A DNA stretch of 38,714 nt, taken from NCBI RefSeq assembly GCF_001418575.1, contig NZ_LIQR01000025.1, forward strand, positions 358 to 39,071, written 5' to 3'. The notes under the pieces were generated by a model that was given only the letters and a program-made list of their open reading frames with translations, had not been told where the DNA came from and searched no databases. The position numbers and the translations under genes were made by a program. Positions within the stretch are counted from its first letter, which is position 1. Each line of letters opens with the position of its first letter. This document shows, one piece after another, positions 22,822-33,291 of this stretch. This DNA is from Peterkaempfera griseoplana (lineage in GTDB: Bacteria > Actinomycetota > Actinomycetes > Streptomycetales > Streptomycetaceae).

Positions 22822-23904
22822 ATGAAGGTCGTCAGCATCGTGGGCGCCCGCCCCCAGCTGGTGAAGCTCGCCCCCGTTGCCGAGGCGCTCGGCGCAGCCG
22901 GGCACCGCCATGTCATCGTGCACACGGGACAGCACTACGACGCCGGCCTCTCCGATGTCTTCTTCAGCGGCCTGGGCATCCCCGCACCCGACGTGCACCT
23001 GGGGATCGGCTCGGGCAGCCACGGGGTGCAGACCGGCGGGGTGCTGGCCGCCCTTGACCCGGTGCTGGCGGCGGAGGGACCGGACTGGGTGCTGGTGTAC
23101 GGCGACACCAACTCGACGCTCGCCGGGGCGGTGGCCGCGGTCAAACTGCAGCTGCCGGTCGCCCATCTGGAGGCCGGACTGCGCTCGTTCAACCGGCGGA
23201 TGCCCGAGGAACACAACCGGGTGCTCACCGACCACGCCGCCGATCTGCTGCTGGCCCCCACCGAGGAGGCGGTGCGCCATCTCACCGAGGAGGGGCTGGC
23301 CGAACGGGCCGAGCTGGTGGGCGATGTGATGGTGGACGTCTGCCTGCGGGTGCGGGACGCGGTCCGGCGCGAGGGCCTTGCCCCCGAACTGCCCGACGGG
23401 GTCGACCCGGCGCGGCCGTATCTGCTGGCGACCGTGCACCGGGCGGAGAACACCGACGACCCCAAGCGGCTGGCGGCGATCGCGGACGCGCTGGCCGGGC
23501 TGCCGCTGCCGGTGGTGCTGCCGGCCCATCCCCGGCTGCTGGCCCGGGCCGGGCAGCACGGTGTGCAGCTGGCCCGGGGGGCGGTGCGGGTGGCGCGTCC
23601 GCTCCCGTATGCGCAGCTGGTCTCGGCCGTGCTGGGCGCCGCCGCCGTGGTCACCGACTCGGGGGGACTGCAGAAGGAGGCCTATCTGCTGGGCCGTCCC
23701 TGCACCACGCTGCGCCCGGAGACCGAGTGGCCGGAGACCCTGGCCGGCGGGTGGAACGTGCTGGTCCCGGACCCGCAGCTGCTGACCGCCGCCGCCTGGG
23801 CGGCCGTCGCGGCCCGCCCGGCCCCCGAGGGGCCGCGCGCCGCCCCGTACGGGGACGGGCGCGCGGCCGGTCGGGTGGCCCGGGTCCTGGCGGAGCGGGC
23901 CTGA
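22822..23904 (+). CDS. Non-hydrolysing UDP-N-acetylglucosamine-type 2-epimerase
   Basis: 360 aa, UDP-GlcNAc 2-epimerase fold (GT-B). Seen: GARPQLVKLAPV at residues 8-19, HTGQHYDAGLSDVFF, VYGDTNSTLAG, AHLEAGLRS, MPEEHNRVLTDH with active-site Glu, ATVHRAEN with the UDP-binding His, and TDSGGLQKEAY. The GARPQ form rather than GTRPE is, as I recall, typical of WbpI/WlbD-type enzymes that epimerise UDP-2,3-diacetamido-glucuronic acid to the mannuronic form, while WecB has GTRPE. ATG 22822 follows GAGGAG. It is divergent from the dehydrogenase and convergent with the Gfo/Idh gene; both stop codons lie in one inverted repeat. Confidence 0.92.
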   Translation: MKVVSIVGARPQLVKLAPVAEALGAAGHRHVIVHTGQHYDAGLSDVFFSGLGIPAPDVHLGIGSGSHGVQTGGVLAALDPVLAAEGPDWVLVYGDTNSTLAGAVAAVKLQLPVAHLEAGLRSFNRRMPEEHNRVLTDHAADLLLAPTEEAVRHLTEEGLAERAELVGDVMVDVCLRVRDAVRREGLAPELPDGVDPARPYLLATVHRAENTDDPKRLAAIADALAGLPLPVVLPAHPRLLARAGQHGVQLARGAVRVARPLPYAQLVSAVLGAAAVVTDSGGLQKEAYLLGRPCTTLRPETEWPETLAGGWNVLVPDPQLLTAAAWAAVAARPAPEGPRAAPYGDGRAAGRVARVLAERA

Positions 23905-23916
23905 CCCGGTCAGGCC
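23898..23916. terminator. Inverted repeat holding both convergent stop codons
   Basis: GGCCTGAC-CCG-GTCAGGCC: perfect 8-bp arms and a 3-base loop. The epimerase TGA (23902-23904) is in the left arm and the 3-dehydrogenase stop (23910-23912, minus) is in the right arm. It is the only structure between the two genes and could end both transcripts. Confidence 0.5.
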
Positions 23917-24956
23917 GGCTGCGGCTCGTCGAGGAGCCGCGGCCGTACCGGCACCGTGGCCCGCCGCTGCGCCGACTCCAGGACCGCCGCCGACACCTCC
24001 ACCGTACGCAGTCCCTGACGGAGCGTCACAATGTCTCCGGGTTTGCCCTCGACGGCGTCCCGGAACCGTTCGTGCTCCACCAGCAGCGGTTCCCGTTTGG
24101 GGATGGCGAAGCGGACCATGTCGCCCTCCGCGACTCCGCGGAAGGCCCGCAGCGCCTCCCACTCGGTGGTCACCGCGCCGTTGGCGTAGAAGGTGAGGTC
24201 GGCGGTGAGGGTGTCCGCCACGAAGCAGCCCCGGGAGCCGGTGACCGCGGCGAAGCGCTCCTTGAGCGGGCTCAGCCAGTTGACCAGGTGGCTGACCACG
24301 GTGCCGTCGGAGAGCTCCCCGACCACCGCCACCATGTCCTCGTGCGGTCGGCCGCTCTTGCTGACCGTACGGGCCGCCACCGAGCTGTAGTCCTGGCCGG
24401 TGACCCAGGCGGTGAGGTCGATGTCGTGGGTGGCCAGGTCCTTGACCACCCCGACGTCCGCGATGCGGTGCGGGAACGGCCCCTGGCGGCGGGTCACCAC
24501 CTGGAAGACCTCACCCAGCTCCCCCGCCTCCAGCCGGGCCCGCAGCGACTGCAGCGCGGGGTTGAACCGCTCGATGTGCCCCACGCCCGCGACCAGCCCG
24601 CGTGCCTCGAAGGCGTCCACCAGCCGCTCCGCGGCCGCCACCGAGTGGGCCAGCGGCTTCTCGATCAGCGCGCAGACCCCGTTGGCGGCCAGCTCCAGGC
24701 CGACCGCCTCATGGTGCGCGGTGGGGCAGGCCACCACCGCGTAGTCGATGCCCAGCGCGACCAGCTCGGCGACGCTGTGCAGCACCGGCACGCCGCGGGC
24801 GGCCCCACTGCGGTCACCGGCCGGGTCGACGGCCGCGACCAGCTGCACACCGTCGAGGCCACTGAGCACCCGGGCGTGGTTGCGGCCCATGGCGCCCAGC
24901 CCCACCAGGCCGACCCGCAGCGTTCGGCGCCCGGCGGTCCGGGCGGGGCCGGTCAT
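23910..24956 (-). CDS. Gfo/Idh/MocA-family NAD-dependent oxidoreductase, probable UDP-sugar 3-dehydrogenase
   Basis: 348 aa. Seen: N-terminal Rossmann fold (VGLVGLGAMGRNHARVLS), Asp of VAAVDP, the family EKP motif in ALIEKPLAHS with Lys for catalysis, GHIERFNPALQ, and a C-terminal alpha/beta domain with VVKDLATHDIDL (conserved D and H). Members of this kind next to DegT aminotransferases (GnnA, WlbA/WbpB, the archaeal UDP-GlcNAc 3-dehydrogenases) oxidise the 3-OH of UDP-GlcNAc or UDP-GlcNAcA. ATG 24956 overlaps the stop of a 25-codon ORF by ATGA, so it is likely translated by coupling. It is separated from the upstream glycosyltransferase by a 12-bp-stem hairpin. Exact substrate is inferred. 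Confidence 0.88.
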   Translation of the reverse strand: MTGPARTAGRRTLRVGLVGLGAMGRNHARVLSGLDGVQLVAAVDPAGDRSGAARGVPVLHSVAELVALGIDYAVVACPTAHHEAVGLELAANGVCALIEKPLAHSVAAAERLVDAFEARGLVAGVGHIERFNPALQSLRARLEAGELGEVFQVVTRRQGPFPHRIADVGVVKDLATHDIDLTAWVTGQDYSSVAARTVSKSGRPHEDMVAVVGELSDGTVVSHLVNWLSPLKERFAAVTGSRGCFVADTLTADLTFYANGAVTTEWEALRAFRGVAEGDMVRFAIPKREPLLVEHERFRDAVEGKPGDIVTLRQGLRTVEVSAAVLESAQRRATVPVRPRLLDEPQPA

Positions 24957-26402: not shown

Positions 26403-27248
26403 TCAGACGTCCTCCAGGACCACGGCGTCCTCGCCGACCTCCTGGAAGCGGATGTAGGCGGCGGTGACCTCCTCGGGGTCGCCGCGCATCATCACCCGGC
26501 CCCGGTGCAGCCAGACGCAGTCGTCGCACAGCTCTCTGATGGTGGCCACGGCATGGCTGACCAGGAAGATCGTGCGGGCCTGGGCGACCAGCTCCTGGAT
26601 CTTGTCGTAGGACTTGCGCTTGAACTTGGCGTCGCCGGCCGACAGTGCCTCGTCGATCAGCAGCACATCCGGCTCCATATGGGTGGAGACGGCGAAAGCC
26701 AGCCGTCCGTACATGCCGGAGGAGTAGGTCTTCATGGGCATGTCGATGAAGTCGCCGAGGTCGGCCCAGTCGGCGATCTGCTGGTAGCGCTTCGCGATCT
26801 GACGGCGACTCAGGCCTGCGGCGAGTCCGCCGAGGACGACGTTCTCCCGTCCGCTGAGGTTGCCGTTGAAGCCCACGCCCAGGGCGAGCAGGGTGCTGAT
26901 CCGGCCGTGGACCTCGATCTCCCCCGAACTCGGCGGCAGGATCCCGGCGACCGCCCGCATCAGGGTGGACTTGCCCGCCCCGTTGGCGCCCACCACGCCC
27001 AGCACGCTGCCGTGCGCCACCTCGATGCTGACGCCGCGCAGCGCCTTGACCTCGCGTACCAGGTCGCGCCGCCCGGAGGGCCTGGTCAGCCGGTAGCGCA
27101 GGGTGTTGGCCCTGGGGTCGCGCGGTACCCGGTAGGTGATGTGGACGTCGCGGACCTGCACCGCCCAGGTTCCCCCCGCTCCGGGGGGAGGCGGGGCGGC
27201 CGGTCCGGTTCCGGCGGCGACCGTCTCAGAGGCGGACAGCGAACTCAC
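26403..27248 (-). CDS. ABC transporter ATPase of polysaccharide exporter (Wzt/TagH type)
   Basis: 281 aa. Seen: Walker A GANGAGKS (residues 87-94), GVGFNGNLSGREN after the Q-loop region, signature YSSGM (175-179), Walker B VLLIDE (195-200) and H-loop LVSHA. The N-terminal segment TYRVPRDPRANTLRYRL and the spacing are those of the polysaccharide exporter subgroup (Wzt, TagH, mycobacterial Rv3781-like). The C-terminal carbohydrate-binding domain of long Wzt proteins is absent, so chain-end recognition by Wzt is unlikely. GTG 27248 lies inside the end of the permease gene (23-bp overlap) and follows GGAGGGA. It drives export of a lipid-linked glycan with the 27226-28116 permease. Confidence 0.94.
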   Translation of the reverse strand: MSSLSASETVAAGTGPAAPPPPGAGGTWAVQVRDVHITYRVPRDPRANTLRYRLTRPSGRRDLVREVKALRGVSIEVAHGSVLGVVGANGAGKSTLMRAVAGILPPSSGEIEVHGRISTLLALGVGFNGNLSGRENVVLGGLAAGLSRRQIAKRYQQIADWADLGDFIDMPMKTYSSGMYGRLAFAVSTHMEPDVLLIDEALSAGDAKFKRKSYDKIQELVAQARTIFLVSHAVATIRELCDDCVWLHRGRVMMRGDPEEVTAAYIRFQEVGEDAVVLEDV

Positions 27249-28116
27249 GCTCCCTCCACAGGAAGACCAGGATCCCGACGAGGAACGCGCCGGCTCCCCA
27301 GCAGCCGCCCGTCACCAGCCAGCCCGGGTGGGCGAAGCGGCCGCGTACCAGGGCGTCTCCCCAGGTGCCGAGCATCGGGGACAGCGGGTTGAGGGAGATC
27401 AGCAGCGCCTTGTTGCCGCCCCTGGCCTGCTGGTCCTCCAGGGCCCAGAGCACCGGCGACAGAAAGAGCCAGATCCTGATCACATAGGGCAGGAAGTTGG
27501 CGAAGTCCCGAAAGTAGACCTGCACCGTGGCGGTCAGGAACCCCAGCCCCGCCCCGAACAGCGCCAGGCACACGAAGGCCGGCAGCGCCGCCAGCATCGG
27601 CCAGCTCCAGGGCAGCCCCTCGACCTCGTGCACCACCAGGAAGACCACCATCGAGGGCAGGAACCGCATGAAGGCGATGACGATCTGGGTGATCGGCAGC
27701 AGCAGCCGGGGAAAGGAGCTGTTCATGATCAGCCGGCTGCTGCCGATCACCGACCCGGCGCACTGGCCCAGGCACGCGGAGAAGAAGTTGAAGGCGAAGA
27801 GTCCCGCCAGCAGCTTGGCGAAGTAGTCGGGCTGGCGGGCGCCGGTGCCCAGGATGTCCACCAGCACGTAGTAGACACAGCCCAGCAGCAGCGGGTTGAG
27901 CACCAGCCACAGCTGCCCGAAGAAACTGGTGTAGTTCTGCGCCCGCAGCGTGCTGCGGGCCATCTCGTGGACGAACTGCCTGCGCTCCCACAGCTGGCGC
28001 AGATACGCCGGGACATGCGGCAGCCCCGCCCGCCGGGCCTGGAAGAGGTGGTGCTCCAGCGGACGGTCCGGCACCACCCGCGCGGCCGCCCGCCGGTCCG
28101 CCGTGGTGTCACTCAT
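27226..28116 (-). CDS. ABC-2 type permease of polysaccharide exporter (Wzm/TagG type)
   Basis: 296 aa with six predicted membrane segments. Seen: the ABC-2 entry region RSTLRAQNYTSFFGQLWLVLNPLLLGCVYY (in homologues R..Y..S.LG..W..L.P), NSSFPRLLLPI and VYFRDFANFLPYVIRIWLFLSPV, all typical of TagG/Wzm/RfbD permeases. ATG 28116 (MSDTTADRR) follows GGGAGGG by about 8 bases and overlaps the preceding gene by 8 bp; an ATG at 28149 is less likely. It pairs with the ATPase gene. Together they would carry a polyprenyl-linked polymer across the membrane. Confidence 0.94.
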   Translation of the reverse strand: MSDTTADRRAAARVVPDRPLEHHLFQARRAGLPHVPAYLRQLWERRQFVHEMARSTLRAQNYTSFFGQLWLVLNPLLLGCVYYVLVDILGTGARQPDYFAKLLAGLFAFNFFSACLGQCAGSVIGSSRLIMNSSFPRLLLPITQIVIAFMRFLPSMVVFLVVHEVEGLPWSWPMLAALPAFVCLALFGAGLGFLTATVQVYFRDFANFLPYVIRIWLFLSPVLWALEDQQARGGNKALLISLNPLSPMLGTWGDALVRGRFAHPGWLVTGGCWGAGAFLVGILVFLWREREFAVRL

Positions 28117-28756
28117 CGCGTCGCCCTCCCCCGCCGGAAGCCGCCGCAACCGGCTGATCCTCGTACAGCGCCCGGTCCAGGCCCAGCGAGACCGCCAGCC
28201 GGGGGTGGCGGCGGCCCAGGTGCCACGCCGTCGGCACGGCGTGGGTGTCGTACGCCACCACCCGCTCGGTGGTCTCCGACACCAGCTGCTCCCCGAAGTG
28301 ACGACGGGCCACCCGCCACATCAGCCAGGGACGCACCACCCGGTAGCCGCGGATGAAGAACCGGTGGTGGAAGGTGTCGGCCAGCCGGGTGTGCAGCCGG
28401 GTCACCAGCCCGACCCCGAGCTCCAGGGCCCGCCCGCCGTCGGGCCGGCGGTAGTGCGGCTCGGCCGCGGCCCGCAGCAGGCCCAGCGCCTTGCGCGGGG
28501 CCCGGTAGACCAGCAGCCGCTCACCGCGCGGCAGCGGATGCCGCCCCTCGCCCTCGCGCAGCGACCACCGGCGCACTTCCGCGGGAAGCCCGGCGGCCTC
28601 CCAGGGCTGCGGGTTGACAGTCAGCAGGTCCACCGCCACGCCCCTGGCCAGCAGGAACTCCGCGTCCTGGCATACCCCGGCCACCCCTCGGGTGTTCAGC
28701 GCCAGCAGCAGCACCCGCCGGGGGGCCGCGGCCGGCTGCCTCCTCCCCGCGCTCAT
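28109..28756 (-). CDS. Unrecognised 215-aa protein, paralogue of the C-terminal domain of the preceding glycosyltransferase
   Basis: Not a family I recognise. Seen: a basic N-terminus, RRVLLLALNTRGVAGVCQDA (about residues 13-32), FLLARGVAVDLLTVN, a central region with FIRGYRVVRPWLMWRVARRHFG, RVVAYDTHAVPTAWHLGRRHP (about 165-185) and a Gly-rich tail. The order of blocks VLLLAL / LxxRGVxV / PWLxWRxARR / VVxxDxxAVxxAWHL is the same as in residues 460-582 of the upstream protein, so the two are paralogous. The alternating strand/helix pattern and HA-like blocks recall half of a GT-B fold, an inference only. ATGA overlap with the upstream stop; 8-bp overlap with the permease. Confidence 0.8.
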   Translation of the reverse strand: MSAGRRQPAAAPRRVLLLALNTRGVAGVCQDAEFLLARGVAVDLLTVNPQPWEAAGLPAEVRRWSLREGEGRHPLPRGERLLVYRAPRKALGLLRAAAEPHYRRPDGGRALELGVGLVTRLHTRLADTFHHRFFIRGYRVVRPWLMWRVARRHFGEQLVSETTERVVAYDTHAVPTAWHLGRRHPRLAVSLGLDRALYEDQPVAAASGGGGRRDE

Positions 28757-30570
28757 CGGACCGCCTCCCGCACCCCGGCCCCCGCCGGGGGCTCCACCGG
28801 CCGTCCGGACGACGGCCCCTCCGGCTGCGCGTACGCGCCCCGCTCCACGCACCACCGCATCGGCAGCTGCGGCTCGGACCGGGCCAGATGCCAGGCGAAG
28901 GCCACGGCGGGAGCGTCGCAGACCACCACCCGGCCGATCACCGGGTGGGGGCCGCCGCCCAGCAGCCCGCGCAGTCCGCGGCGGGCCAGCCGCCACAGCA
29001 GCCACGGACCGAGCGGACCGTCACCCGAAGGCAGCCGCAGCACCCCCACCCGGGGGTCGGCCGCGGCCGCCTCCGCCACCTCCCGGCGTGCGGCGGCGAC
29101 GACCACCGGTACGCCACGCTCCGCCAGCCAGGCGGCGTCCGCCACCACGGCCCGCAGCCGGGTACCGCCCAGGGCCAGCAGCAGCACCGTACCTTCCCCG
29201 GACGGGCCGGACGCGCCGCCGGGAACGGCCCGGGAGGAGAGCCCCGGCCAGGCGTCAGGGCCCGCGCCACCCGGCCGTCCGCGGGACACGGCGGCAGCGC
29301 TGGGGACCGCAGGGGCCGGCCCCGGGGCGGTGGGCCCGTAGACCTCCGCCAGCTCCGCACCGACCTGGGCCAGGCCGAAGCGCTGCTCCACCGCGGCGCG
29401 GGCCCGCACCGGGTCCAGCCTCTCCACCCCGGCCACCAGCTGCCGGTAGCCCTCCAGCAGCGGCCCGGGTCCGTCGGCGACGTCCACCAGCCGGCCCGCC
29501 ACCCCCTCCAGTCCGGCCATCGTCTGCTCCGGTCCGCCGCAGCGGGTGACCAGCACCGGCATACCGCTGGCGACCGCCTCCACGACCGTCATACCGAAGG
29601 TCTCGAAGCTGCTCGGGTGCACCAGCAGATCGTGCTGGTGCATGATCGGGAAGACCTCGTCCGGATCCACCGGCCCGCGCACCACGACCTGTCCGGCCAC
29701 CCCCAGCTCGGCGGCGCGCCGGCGGACCGCGTCCGCGTCACCCGGCCCCACCAGGGTGAGTTCCAGCGCGGGGTCGTCGGCCACCGCCGCGGCGAAGGCG
29801 GTGAGCAGCAGTGGCACCCCCTTGGCCGCGACCAGGTTTCCGACGAAGAGCCAGCGGCGCAGCTCCCGCACCCGGGCCGGCCGCCGGGGGATCGCCGCCA
29901 CATCCACCGCGTTGGGCACGACCCTGAACTTCTCCGCGTGCTCGGGGAAGGACTGGGCCAGCCGCTCCCGGAGCCACGGGCTGACGCACAGAAAGGCGTC
30001 CGCCCGCTCCACGACCTCGCCGTAGAGCCCGCGGGAGGCCGGCTGGCGCAGCACGGCGGGCAGGAAGGAGGCGTGTTCGGTCACCACGACCCGCGCCCCC
30101 GGCCTGGCCAGCCGGCACGCCGCCCAGCCCCCGTAGATGCCGGTGTGCCCATGGACGACGTCGGCGTCGATGCGTCCGCCGGGGAGCACCGCCCGCAGCG
30201 CGCTCTCATGAGCCCGCGCCCACTCTGCGTACTGCGCGGGCGGCCGTACCGGCACCGGCACCCTGGTCAGCCGCCAGCCCTCGGCGGTGGTCTCGGGCAC
30301 CACCGGCACCCGTCCGCCGCCGGGCGGCCCGGCCATCCGCTCATAGGCGGTGCGCACCAGGTCGTGCCGGAACTCCCCGCCCGCCGACGGCCAGTCCTCC
30401 CCGTTGAGGACCTCCACCTCGGCGAAGCGCGCCGCCACCGCGGCGGTGGCGGTCCGCACAAACGATCCTGCATGCGGACGCTGCGGACACGGGTACCAGG
30501 GCGTCACCACGGCCAGCCGTGCGGCCGGCTGCCGCCGGTGCGGTCTGCGATCCCTGCGGTCAGCGGCCAC
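28753..30570 (-). CDS. GT4-type glycosyltransferase with extra C-terminal domain
   Basis: 605 aa. Residues 18-410 are a GT-B glycosyltransferase: VVTPWYPCPQRPHAGSFVR, VVHGHTGIYGGWAA, VVTEHASFLPAVLRQ, VVPNAVDVAAIPRR, LFVGNLVAAKGVPLLL, LTLVGPGDADAVRR and the donor signature HPSSFETFGMTVVEAVASGMPVLVTRCGG (E-x7-E). A Pro/Ala/Gly linker (about 412-458) joins this to a second domain (460-582) that starts VLLLALGGTRLR and is paralogous to the 28109-28756 protein. GTG 30570 overlaps the upstream gene by 11 bp. It probably adds a sugar during polymer synthesis; the role of the extra domain is unknown. Confidence 0.88.
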   Translation of the reverse strand: MAADRRDRRPHRRQPAARLAVVTPWYPCPQRPHAGSFVRTATAAVAARFAEVEVLNGEDWPSAGGEFRHDLVRTAYERMAGPPGGGRVPVVPETTAEGWRLTRVPVPVRPPAQYAEWARAHESALRAVLPGGRIDADVVHGHTGIYGGWAACRLARPGARVVVTEHASFLPAVLRQPASRGLYGEVVERADAFLCVSPWLRERLAQSFPEHAEKFRVVPNAVDVAAIPRRPARVRELRRWLFVGNLVAAKGVPLLLTAFAAAVADDPALELTLVGPGDADAVRRRAAELGVAGQVVVRGPVDPDEVFPIMHQHDLLVHPSSFETFGMTVVEAVASGMPVLVTRCGGPEQTMAGLEGVAGRLVDVADGPGPLLEGYRQLVAGVERLDPVRARAAVEQRFGLAQVGAELAEVYGPTAPGPAPAVPSAAAVSRGRPGGAGPDAWPGLSSRAVPGGASGPSGEGTVLLLALGGTRLRAVVADAAWLAERGVPVVVAAARREVAEAAAADPRVGVLRLPSGDGPLGPWLLWRLARRGLRGLLGGGPHPVIGRVVVCDAPAVAFAWHLARSEPQLPMRWCVERGAYAQPEGPSSGRPVEPPAGAGVREAVR

Positions 30571-32020
30571 CTGCGATCCTCCTCAACCGCTCCTCGAACG
30601 GCGCCAGCGTCGCCTCCCGGGTGAACCGCTCGGCGTGCGCCGCCGCCCGCTCCACCTGCTCCGGCCGCAGCTCCAGCGCCGCCCGCCCGGCCGCGACGAA
30701 CGCCCCCGCCACCGACCGCGCGTCCAGCCTGCCGCCGGAGAACCAGAGCGGATGGCCGCGCAGCACATCCACAGCGGCATGGTCCGGCCGGTGCACCGAC
30801 ACGATCGGTTTCCCGGTGGCCATGTACTCGAAGACCTTGCCGGAGGTGACATAACGCGCACCCCCCGCCAGGAACACCACCGCGTCCATCTCCCCGTACG
30901 CGGCCGCGACCTCCGCCTTGGCCACCGGGCCCCGGTAGTGCACCCCGGACCGCTCACCGCGCTCCGGCATCCGCTCCAGCAGCGGACGGGCGCTGTGGGC
31001 GAAGAACCCCAGATGGCCGTGGAGATGCAGTTGGGCACCGGCCAGCAGCGGGTCCCTGCGGGCCAGCTCCCAGGCGTCGAACAGCACCTCCAGCGGCAAC
31101 TGGTCGGTGAGGGTCCCGAGGTAGCCGAACCTCAGCGGACGCCCGGCCGGGCGCTCCCGCCAGCGCGGCCGTCCCAGGATCTCCGGCTCCCAGCCGTTGT
31201 AGACCACCCGGGAGCGCCCCGCCGCGAACGGGTAACGGTCCGCGTACCACTGCCGGATGGGCTCGTTGACGTGCACCACCTCGGCCGCACCGCGCAGCAC
31301 CCGGCGCTCCCACGCCCAGGCGCTGCTCCCCGGTTCGAAGCCCGGCTCGCCGGTGAGCGGACTGAACGCCCAGGGGTCGCGGTAGTCCAACACATAGGGG
31401 ACGCGCAGGGCACGGCCCAGCGCCCACGCCCCCGCGAAGGACGCGAACGGATTGCCGGTCGCCAGCACCAGGTCGAACGGCCGGGCCAGGTGCAGCCGCA
31501 CCGCCCGGGCCAGCAGATGCGGCAGCCAGGTCGCGTAGTGCTCGGGGAAGACCCGGCGCTGCGCCCACCTGTGCCCCGCGCTCACCAGGGTGGGGAAGTG
31601 CGCCCGCAGCGGACCGAACCGGCGGATGTCGCGCTCCCAGCGGAAGTAGCCCATCCGGGGCCGCTCCACCGCGACCGCCGGATGGATCCGGGCCTCCAGC
31701 GAGGGGTCGTGGGAGCGGAGGTAGTCCGAGAAGAACTCACGCGGCGCCGTCGCCACCGTCACCTCCCACTCCCGCTCGGCCAGCAGGTTCGCGGTGGCGA
31801 GCGCCCGGTAGACGCCGCTGGCCCGGGTGGGCGGGAAGAAGAACGCCAGATACAGCACCCGGGGCCGGTCCCGGGCGGTGCGGCCCAGCGGGCCGCGCCG
31901 GTCCGCCGCGCGGACGACGGCCAGGTCGGGCGGCTGCTTCCGGAGGGTGCCACAGGGTGCCGAGGTCACATCTGAACCGTAGGCAGACCTCCCGCCCGGC
32001 CGCCTGTCGAGCACCGCCAT
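30560..32020 (-). CDS. GT4-type glycosyltransferase
   Basis: 486 aa. Seen: VLYLAFFFPPTRASGVYRAL near residue 55, the FDLVLATGNPFASFAGAWALGR and YVLDYRDPWAFSP blocks of GT4 enzymes that read the acceptor, VVYNGWEPEI, FGYLGTLTDQLPLEVLFDA, LHLHGHLG and the donor site SGKVFEYMATGKPIVSV. The first 50 residues are an Arg-rich extension of doubtful use. ATG 32020 follows GGAG by about 6 bases. It is first gene of the unit 32020 to 26403 (this gene, the fusion glycosyltransferase, the 215-aa protein, permease, ATPase), with each junction overlapping. Sugar specificity cannot be told. Confidence 0.85.
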   Translation of the reverse strand: MAVLDRRPGGRSAYGSDVTSAPCGTLRKQPPDLAVVRAADRRGPLGRTARDRPRVLYLAFFFPPTRASGVYRALATANLLAEREWEVTVATAPREFFSDYLRSHDPSLEARIHPAVAVERPRMGYFRWERDIRRFGPLRAHFPTLVSAGHRWAQRRVFPEHYATWLPHLLARAVRLHLARPFDLVLATGNPFASFAGAWALGRALRVPYVLDYRDPWAFSPLTGEPGFEPGSSAWAWERRVLRGAAEVVHVNEPIRQWYADRYPFAAGRSRVVYNGWEPEILGRPRWRERPAGRPLRFGYLGTLTDQLPLEVLFDAWELARRDPLLAGAQLHLHGHLGFFAHSARPLLERMPERGERSGVHYRGPVAKAEVAAAYGEMDAVVFLAGGARYVTSGKVFEYMATGKPIVSVHRPDHAAVDVLRGHPLWFSGGRLDARSVAGAFVAAGRAALELRPEQVERAAAHAERFTREATLAPFEERLRRIAGGR

Positions 32021-32163: not shown

Positions 32164-33291
32164 CTAGCCGAGCAGCCCGCCCAGGGAGTTGGCGGCGGCG
32201 ATGATGCGCTCCAGCTCGGCGGCGGTGAGCGTCGGGTACACCGGCAGCGACAGCACCTCGGCGGACGCCCGCTCGGTCTCCGGCAGGTCCCAGCGCTTCA
32301 GCTGCTCACCGTCGTCCCCGCGGTAGGACTTCAGCCGGTGGATCGGCGTGGGGTAGTAGACCGCACTGCCCACCCCCCGGTTGGCCAGTGCCTTCTGCAC
32401 GCAGTCACGGTCGGGTCGGCCGTTGCCCGGTACCCGCACCGTGTACTGGTGGTAGACGTGGTGGGCTCCGTCGGCCACCTCCGGGGTGTGCAGCCCGGTC
32501 AGCCGGGAGTCCAGCAGCTTGGCGTTGGCCCGGCGCTGCTCCGTCCACACCGCCAGGCGGCCCAGCTGCACCCGTCCCACCGCCGCCGCCACATCGGTGA
32601 GCCGCATGTTGGCGCCCACCACCTCGTTGACGTAGCGCTGCTCCATGCCCTGGTTGCGCAGCAGCCGCAGGCGGCGGGCGAGTTCGGCGTCCGCGGTGGT
32701 GATCATGCCTCCCTCCAGGGAGTGCATGTTCTTCGTCGGGTAGAAGCTGAAGCAGCCCGCGGCACCGAAGGTGCCCACCGGCCGGCCGCCGAGCGCGGCC
32801 GCGTGCGCCTGACAGGCGTCCTCGACGACGGCCAGCCCGTGACGTTCGGCGATCGGCATCAGCCCGTCCATGGCCGCGGGATGACCGTAGAGGTGCACCG
32901 GCAGCAGCGCGGCGGTACGGGGGCCGACAGCTGCGGCGACGGCCTCCGGGTCCAGGCAGAAGCTGCCGGGCTCGATGTCGGCGAAGACCGGCTCGGCGCC
33001 CACCAGCCGTACGGCGTTGGCGGTCGCGGCGAAGGAGAAGGACGGCACCACGACCTCGTCGCCGGGACCGATGCCCAGCGCCATCAGGGTGAGCTGCAGC
33101 GCGGATGTGCCCGAGTTGACGGCCACGCAGTGACTGCCGTCGACCAGGGCCGAGAACTCCGCCTCGAACGCCGCCACCTCCGGCCCCTGCACCACGGCGC
33201 CGCTGCGCAGCACCCGTACCGCGGCCTCGATCTCGTCATCACCGATCACGGGACGCGCTGCGGGGATCAGCTCTTCGTTCCGCCCGCGCAT
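32164..33291 (-). CDS. DegT/DnrJ/EryC1-family PLP-dependent sugar aminotransferase
   Basis: 375 aa, fold-type I aminotransferase that puts an amino group on a keto-sugar nucleotide, usually from glutamate. Seen: IPAARPVIGDDEIEAAVRVLRSG at the N-terminus, NSGTSALQLTL (PLP phosphate binding), VVVPSFSFAATANAV, VEDACQAHAA (Asp for the pyridine N) and the Schiff-base Lys187 in FSFYPTKNMHSLEGG. The start ATG 33291 (MRGRNEELIP) follows GGAGGTGG; the frame to 33384 is rejected. It would act on the 3-keto product of the Gfo/Idh enzyme at 23910-24956, although the two genes are 8 kb apart. It has about 130-170 bp gaps on both sides and so may be a separate unit. Confidence 0.93.
   Translation of the reverse strand: MRGRNEELIPAARPVIGDDEIEAAVRVLRSGAVVQGPEVAAFEAEFSALVDGSHCVAVNSGTSALQLTLMALGIGPGDEVVVPSFSFAATANAVRLVGAEPVFADIEPGSFCLDPEAVAAAVGPRTAALLPVHLYGHPAAMDGLMPIAERHGLAVVEDACQAHAAALGGRPVGTFGAAGCFSFYPTKNMHSLEGGMITTADAELARRLRLLRNQGMEQRYVNEVVGANMRLTDVAAAVGRVQLGRLAVWTEQRRANAKLLDSRLTGLHTPEVADGAHHVYHQYTVRVPGNGRPDRDCVQKALANRGVGSAVYYPTPIHRLKSYRGDDGEQLKRWDLPETERASAEVLSLPVYPTLTAAELERIIAAANSLGGLLG

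Follow-up and report, generated by a model that had tools for sequence, protein, structure and literature searches.

Helper proteins of glycosyltransferases (GTs) are known in several forms. EryCII is described as a cytochrome P450 homologue that assists a GT, and helpers of the EryCII/DesVIII and GtfB types have P450-like or complete GT-B folds and are not half-domains. A GT-B N-terminal half encoded as its own protein occurs in split enzymes of the GT1/GT28 type, Alg14 and EpsE (PMC8993221). Here we report on a domain, D, which would accompany a GT as those helpers do and which resembles a GT-B N-half. It was found in a 38,714-nucleotide (nt) stretch of Peterkaempfera griseoplana DNA, called the window below (GCF_001418575.1, contig NZ_LIQR01000025.1, positions 358-39,071, forward strand). 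D is common to D215, a protein of 215 amino acids (aa), and to the C-terminal domain (CTD) of GT605, a 605-aa enzyme of the GT4 family. Profile comparison shows the D family to be distantly related to the N-terminal (acceptor-side) half of GT4 enzymes, in truncated form. Its members are fused to complete GT4 enzymes or encoded directly behind them, in actinomycete clusters that by their gene content would make an acidic cell-wall polysaccharide.

The nearest biological setting is the utr cluster of Streptomyces griseus. According to PMC13274773, a dehydrogenase, an oxidase, an aminotransferase and a 2-epimerase supply uridine diphosphate (UDP)-2,3-diacetamido-2,3-dideoxymannuronic acid (UDP-ManNAc3NAcA) for a teichuronic-acid-like polymer. 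Such Streptomyces polymers were recently reported to serve umbrella toxins as receptors, and structure modelling was the main basis on which the enzymes that assemble them were assigned (same source). Neither window copy of D has a name in Pfam or NCBIfam, and D has no description in the literature searched, to which the supplements of PMC13274773, which may show D-like proteins, did not belong.

One domain in two genes

The first-pass annotation of the window had proposed that an unrecognised domain is present in two overlapping genes ahead of exporter genes, with four sequence blocks in a common order. Both open reading frames were indeed found on the minus strand, with an ATGA overlap at 28753-28756, and the end of D215 overlaps the start codon of the exporter gene Wzm (28114-28116) by 8 nt. 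The four blocks are present in order: VLLLAL (D215 15-20, GT605 462-467), RGV (39-41 and 485-487), PWL(M/L)WR(V/L)ARR (143-152 and 522-531) and VV..D..AV..AWHL (166-179 and 548-561). BLASTP matched D215 to CTD at E 2e-7 (41% over 69 aa, with a second piece of 50% over 26 aa), and the local score of 102 lies above the maximum of 1000 shuffles (71, mean 34), so that the likeness is beyond chance. With relatives added, hhalign gave 99.2% for alignments A1 and A2 (E 1.8e-19) and 99.8% for A5 and A6 (E 1.3e-29).

Structure prediction, which the annotation had suggested for both copies, gave the same order of strands and helices. The AlphaFold2 model of D215 (predicted local distance difference test, pLDDT, 90.7; predicted template modelling score, pTM, 0.80) consists of strand 14-18, helix 25-37, strands 41-46 and 62-65, helices 74-102 and 108-157, strand 163-168, helix 171-183 and strand 188-190. 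That of CTD (pLDDT 80.7, pTM 0.74) repeats these elements minus the long hairpin, aa 74-157 of D215. We conclude that the two are the same domain, though of unequal size. A count of two holds for the window; the related genomes have one to three D per locus.

D and the N-terminal half of GT4 enzymes

The family was collected from 11 loci of related genomes and 22 named loci. It comprises a long form (~190 aa, with a cationic hairpin) and a short form (~120 aa). The window copies alone fall below Pfam cut-offs, CTD having a weak match to PF13579 (E 0.019), and for these copies the annotation's "no named family" stands, although matches at E<=1 were obtained among 23 D members, in 7 of them to PF13579 (Glyco_trans_4_4; best 6.9e-7) and in 6 to PF13439 (Glyco_transf_4). 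A Pfam match of D215 to UreE_C (E 0.16) was taken as chance.

A combined D profile (48 rows) was then compared with 14 local families and with the N-terminus of UtrF-like proteins. The best of the families tested was the N-half of GT_30560, a GT4 enzyme encoded in the window (90.7%, E 1.2e-6), followed by UtrG-like enzymes (88.5%, E 2.7e-6), the UtrF-like N-terminus (81%, E 1.2e-5), GT_35087 (75%, E 2.5e-5) and GT_25117 (E 3.5e-3). The GT part of UtrF gave no match, nor did GT_33462, the latter a weak test over a partial range. Seven non-GT4 controls all remained at E>=0.06 (Gfo/Idh, UDP-sugar dehydrogenase, GalE, WecB, DegT, Wzt and a UtrC-like GT2). Since profiles match GT4 N-halves and controls are negative, D resembles the acceptor-side half of a neighbouring GT4. 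This fits one suggestion of the annotation, an unusual glycosyltransferase half.

The similarity to GT4 N-halves (PF13579, PF13439) extends over strands 1-5, a Rossmann-like core. D aligned to positions 3-166 of the 263-position GT_30560 N profile and to 7-115 of the 158 in PF13579; it lacks the last third of the N-half, and therefore the linker side of the cleft. The donor-binding C-half with its EX7E motif is also absent: D215 and CTD end after strand 5, neither matches PF00534 or PF13692, and neither family is listed for the 23 D members. Unlike GT4 N-halves, the long copies add the cationic hairpin. The half-GT family is real; it is neither a new fold nor a new enzyme class.

A comparable arrangement exists in Streptomyces teichuronic-acid clusters. 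Among 74 genomes with a DegT match, 40 regions were compared, 39 from D-negative genomes and one from the D-positive genome G005. None of the 40 has a GT605-like gene. Where a region has both WecB and a GT_30560-like gene (~38-40%), a ~711-aa GT is usually encoded there too; going by gene order, the GT_30560-like enzyme would be UtrG and the ~711-aa GT would be UtrF. Like D, the N-terminal region of this UtrF-position GT (aa 1-150) can precede a GT on one chain, in a similar type of cluster, but its likeness to D is distant and it has no Pfam match. This D-like region starts 11 of 15 UtrF-like proteins. The other four lack it (L110:3818-5347, L111:7173-8738, L115:14817-16352, L124:8332-9954), so that it looks detachable there too.

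Partner genes and possible roles of D

The family and its partnership with GT4 enzymes are well supported, and from the observed homology, truncation, partner, gene coupling and charge we infer a mechanism involving complex formation, a ligand and an effect on polymerisation. We propose, with a probability of roughly 0.45, that D is an accessory acceptor- or chain-holding module (subunit or domain) of polymerising GT4s. It would have arisen from the acceptor half of a GT_30560/UtrG-type enzyme by loss of the donor half, and would bind the growing anionic ManNAc3NAcA-containing chain, or its carrier, via the Rossmann face and the cationic hairpin. It may thereby keep the chain on the enzyme, or pass it between GTs adding alternating sugars, catalysis being left to the adjoining complete GT4 and none being expected of D.

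Gene order points to the GT as partner. An upstream gene is visible for 31 standalone D genes, and for all 31 it is an immediately preceding GT4 gene of the same strand (22 GT605, 7 GT_30560, one GT_33462 across a 444-nt gap, one GT_35087); nine of these D genes overlap it by 4 nt. Two more standalone D genes stand at contig edges. The locus of Actinomadura sp. K4S16 (L045:70-6534) has a D for each GT, namely after GT_30560, after GT605 and after another GT_30560. Beyond the Streptomycetaceae, three contigs (L136-L138) have D between GT_35087 and Wzm; in L140 and L141 it comes after GT_30560, and in L139 it is fused to a GT605-like protein. Two class-level genomes have GT605-like genes (39-44% identity; L138:418-1965, and L140:3-1166, cut by the end of the stretch) with no D directly behind them and D elsewhere, and GT605 and D are therefore not always adjacent outside the family. 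The annotation's helper of the glycosyltransferase agrees with this, as D travels with GT605-type and GT_30560-type GT4 enzymes. Its helper of the exporter does not: Wzm adjoins D in 6 of the 22 named loci (L030, L031, L032, L037, L038, L049), whereas D directly adjoins a GT4 or is fused to one. We rejected this as a general role, D and Wzm/Wzt also lying at two loci in G005. There the D, GT605 and GT_30560 genes are at L023, and Wzm/Wzt with the UDP-ManNAc3NAcA genes are apart, at L096.

In most searches for D, 8-10 candidates were scored per genome (28, 22 and 17 in one), and 5-6 in partner searches, so that the following counts are lower bounds; they are also not independent, the genomes being related. 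D was found in 12 of 297 family genomes and 7 of 394 class genomes. The phylum search (396 genomes) returned two matches, the own genome and a weak 44-residue partial treated as noise, and the plasmid search none. Scanning the contigs of named genomes with D215 alone gave no relative; alignment A4 gave the 22 loci instead. The named hosts include Streptomyces, Streptacidiphilus, Mangrovactinospora, Actinospica, Actinocrinis, Plantactinospora, Actinomadura, Actinoplanes and a metagenome-assembled genome of Frankiaceae. A GT605-type GT4 was present in 11 of the 297 family genomes, all D-positive, and in none of the 285 D-negative ones; in the twelfth D genome, G012, D is at a contig edge. GT_30560 homologues occur in 22 genomes, 11 D-positive (47-100% identity) and 11 D-negative (37-41%).

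A tree was built from 66 copies (L019-L051, minus the duplicate loci L020, L022 and L024), with orthologues in L019 and L030 standing in for the window; several of its forks are poorly supported, and some long branches join one another. Half of the copies (33/66) are fused to GT605-type enzymes. Copies cluster by position relative to the GT, with 10 label changes against a shuffled mean of 36.1 (0 of 200 shuffles as low). The copies fused at the N-terminus fall into a single group (100/95). The orthologues of D215 fall together with copies that are fused at the C-terminus or stand after GT_30560 (80/93), and CTD falls together with standalone Actinospicaceae copies (93/39, weak). These position-specific clades, together with the tight gene coupling and the co-occurrence with GT605, would also suit a structural or regulatory glue with no ligand of its own, which keeps a complex of several GTs stable (GT605 + GT_30560 + UtrC or Wzm/Wzt). 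We find this unlikely, because a conserved Asp and a uniformly cationic hairpin exceed what a plain scaffold needs.

That Asp, at the end of strand 4, is present in 36 of 37 long D rows (Asp170 in D215) and in all 14 rows of A6 (Asp552 in CTD). Its conservation, the relation to a GT4 N-half and the position of fused copies next to complete GT4 parts could mean that D serves as an alternative acceptor half and joins the donor half of the GT4 beside it, one donor domain then working with two acceptor domains (e.g. for primer and growing chain). The missing linker side of the cleft makes this improbable.

The hairpin-aligned region has a net charge of +10 to +20 (mean +15.2) and 4-9 aromatic residues in 37 of 37 long D rows, the rest of the domain being at about -0.3. 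A cationic aromatic hairpin might equally bind anionic lipids, D then bringing the GT4 to the membrane face with the lipid-linked acceptor and positioning the enzyme, not the chain. Alg14 offers a precedent: it is the N-half of a split GT, binds the acceptor and is associated with the membrane (PMC8993221). It requires a separate donor half, Alg13, whereas the partners of D are complete GT4s: both halves are present in GT605 (PF13439 and PF13692/PF00534), and no lone donor-half gene was seen in the window list. Moreover, short D copies lack the hairpin, and no transmembrane segment is apparent in D215 when its sequence is read by eye. No Alg14 family was among the Pfam matches of the window copies and the 23 D members, a missing match that does not exclude one. 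We consider an anchor of this kind fairly unlikely.

Three congeneric genomes, compared in their three pairs, gave ratios of non-synonymous to synonymous substitution (dN/dS) of 0.32-0.41 for D215 and 0.25-0.39 for CTD, against 0.21 for the GT4 part, meaning that D is under purifying selection. A non-functional remnant of a duplicated GT4 would be truncated, variable in number and absent from many similar clusters, as D is, but these ratios, the spread over several actinomycete families and the 31 of 31 positions behind GT4 genes make it very improbable.

Several results weigh against the chain-holding module or the homology beneath it. GT605 is the partner that D has most often, yet its N-half gave no match to the D profile (E 0.64); a derivation of D from that very half was rejected for this lack of match. 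Foldseek found nothing below 1e-3 with the D215 and CTD models (E >= 7.6e-3), the D215 hairpin blurring a search in which absence from the lists proves nothing. VIA-align returned glycosyltransferases (GT-B N-halves) in 28 of 50 rows for CTD (top 2iya, Z 9.0, 119 aligned, 3.2 A) and 18 of 50 for D215 (top row MurC, Z 9.0, 98 aligned, 3.4 A), and as these tie at Z 7-9 with other Rossmann folds, the fold search alone does not decide. Sequence searches of solved structures with A3 and A2 gave nothing convincing (best E 0.04-0.05, a designed protein). Short D copies, CTD included, have only +2 to +7 in the hairpin region, so that charge-based chain binding cannot be the whole function of D. The equivalent 75 aa carry +8.5 in GT_30560, which is fairly basic there, and -4 in enzymes of the UtrG-like group; a 75-aa stretch of +15 or more is present somewhere in 11% of the set's 901 proteins. 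Finally, many teichuronic-type clusters do without this type of D.

The locus and its probable polymer

Table 1. Features of the window discussed in the text
Feature	Position	Strand	Basis
WecB-like UDP-GlcNAc 2-epimerase, UtrH-like	22822..23904	+	function by analogy
Gfo/Idh-like oxidase, UtrB-like	23910..24956	-	function by analogy
Wzt-like ATPase	26403..27161	-	name from sequence and gene order alone
Wzm-like ABC-2 exporter membrane protein	27226..28116	-	Pfam, gene list
D215, standalone long D domain, 215 aa, five-stranded Rossmann-like core and helical hairpin	28109..28756	-	profiles, AlphaFold2, dN/dS
D215 conserved Asp170, end of strand 4	28247..28249	-	alignment
D215 helical hairpin insert, aa 74-157, net charge +12	28286..28537	-	AlphaFold2, alignment
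GT605 gene, 605-aa GT4	28753-30570	-	
CTD, short D domain fused to GT605, aa 460-585, with conserved Asp552	28816..29193	-	Pfam, BLASTP, hhalign, AlphaFold2
Ala/Gly/Pro-rich linker from GT4 part to CTD, aa ~416-459	29194..29325	-	sequence
Complete GT4 (GT-B) part of GT605 with ETFGMTVVE (EX7E)	29326..30519	-	Pfam PF13439/PF13692/PF00534
GT_30560, GT4, nearest profile relative of D via its N-half	30560..32020	-	Pfam, profile comparison
DegT/UtrA-like sugar aminotransferase, UDP-ManNAc3NAcA pathway	32164..33291	-	function by analogy with utrA (PMC13274773)

The motif E-x-F-G-x4-E is present in 43 of 44 GT605-like proteins (L019-L051). The sole protein without it is the D-GT-D protein of Plantactinospora (L040:4330-6549), whose GT part, judged by this motif, may be inactive.

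Homologues of the dehydrogenase, oxidase, aminotransferase and 2-epimerase genes for UDP-ManNAc3NAcA are present in the window and in the clusters of relatives; their match to the utr genes is one of gene order and of the functions described, and no S. griseus sequence enters into it. The window cluster probably builds an acidic cell-wall sugar polymer. Neither UtrC, the GT2 that joins the polymer to teichoic acid, nor the N-acetyltransferase UtrJ was recognised in the window gene list, and window or assembly may be incomplete. A UtrJ/WbpD-like N-acetyltransferase gene, which adjoins the same genes in most related clusters, was not recognised between 22822 and 36391 and may lie elsewhere in the genome. 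With no recognised UtrC and with Wzm/Wzt present, the polymer is probably exported on a lipid carrier.

A bolder version of the proposal, which we consider rather unlikely, is that D is the first recognised detachable acceptor domain, a half-GT that binds the growing anionic polymer or even joins the donor half of a neighbour, and thereby lets several complete GT4s share, exchange or retain one chain during alternating teichuronic-type polymerisation. That several actinomycete families share a half-GT bound to a single type of GT4 points to an unlisted component of the teichuronic-type assembly machinery. If D does hold or pass the chain, this would show how a regular polymer can come from two alternating GT-B enzymes with no dedicated polymerase.

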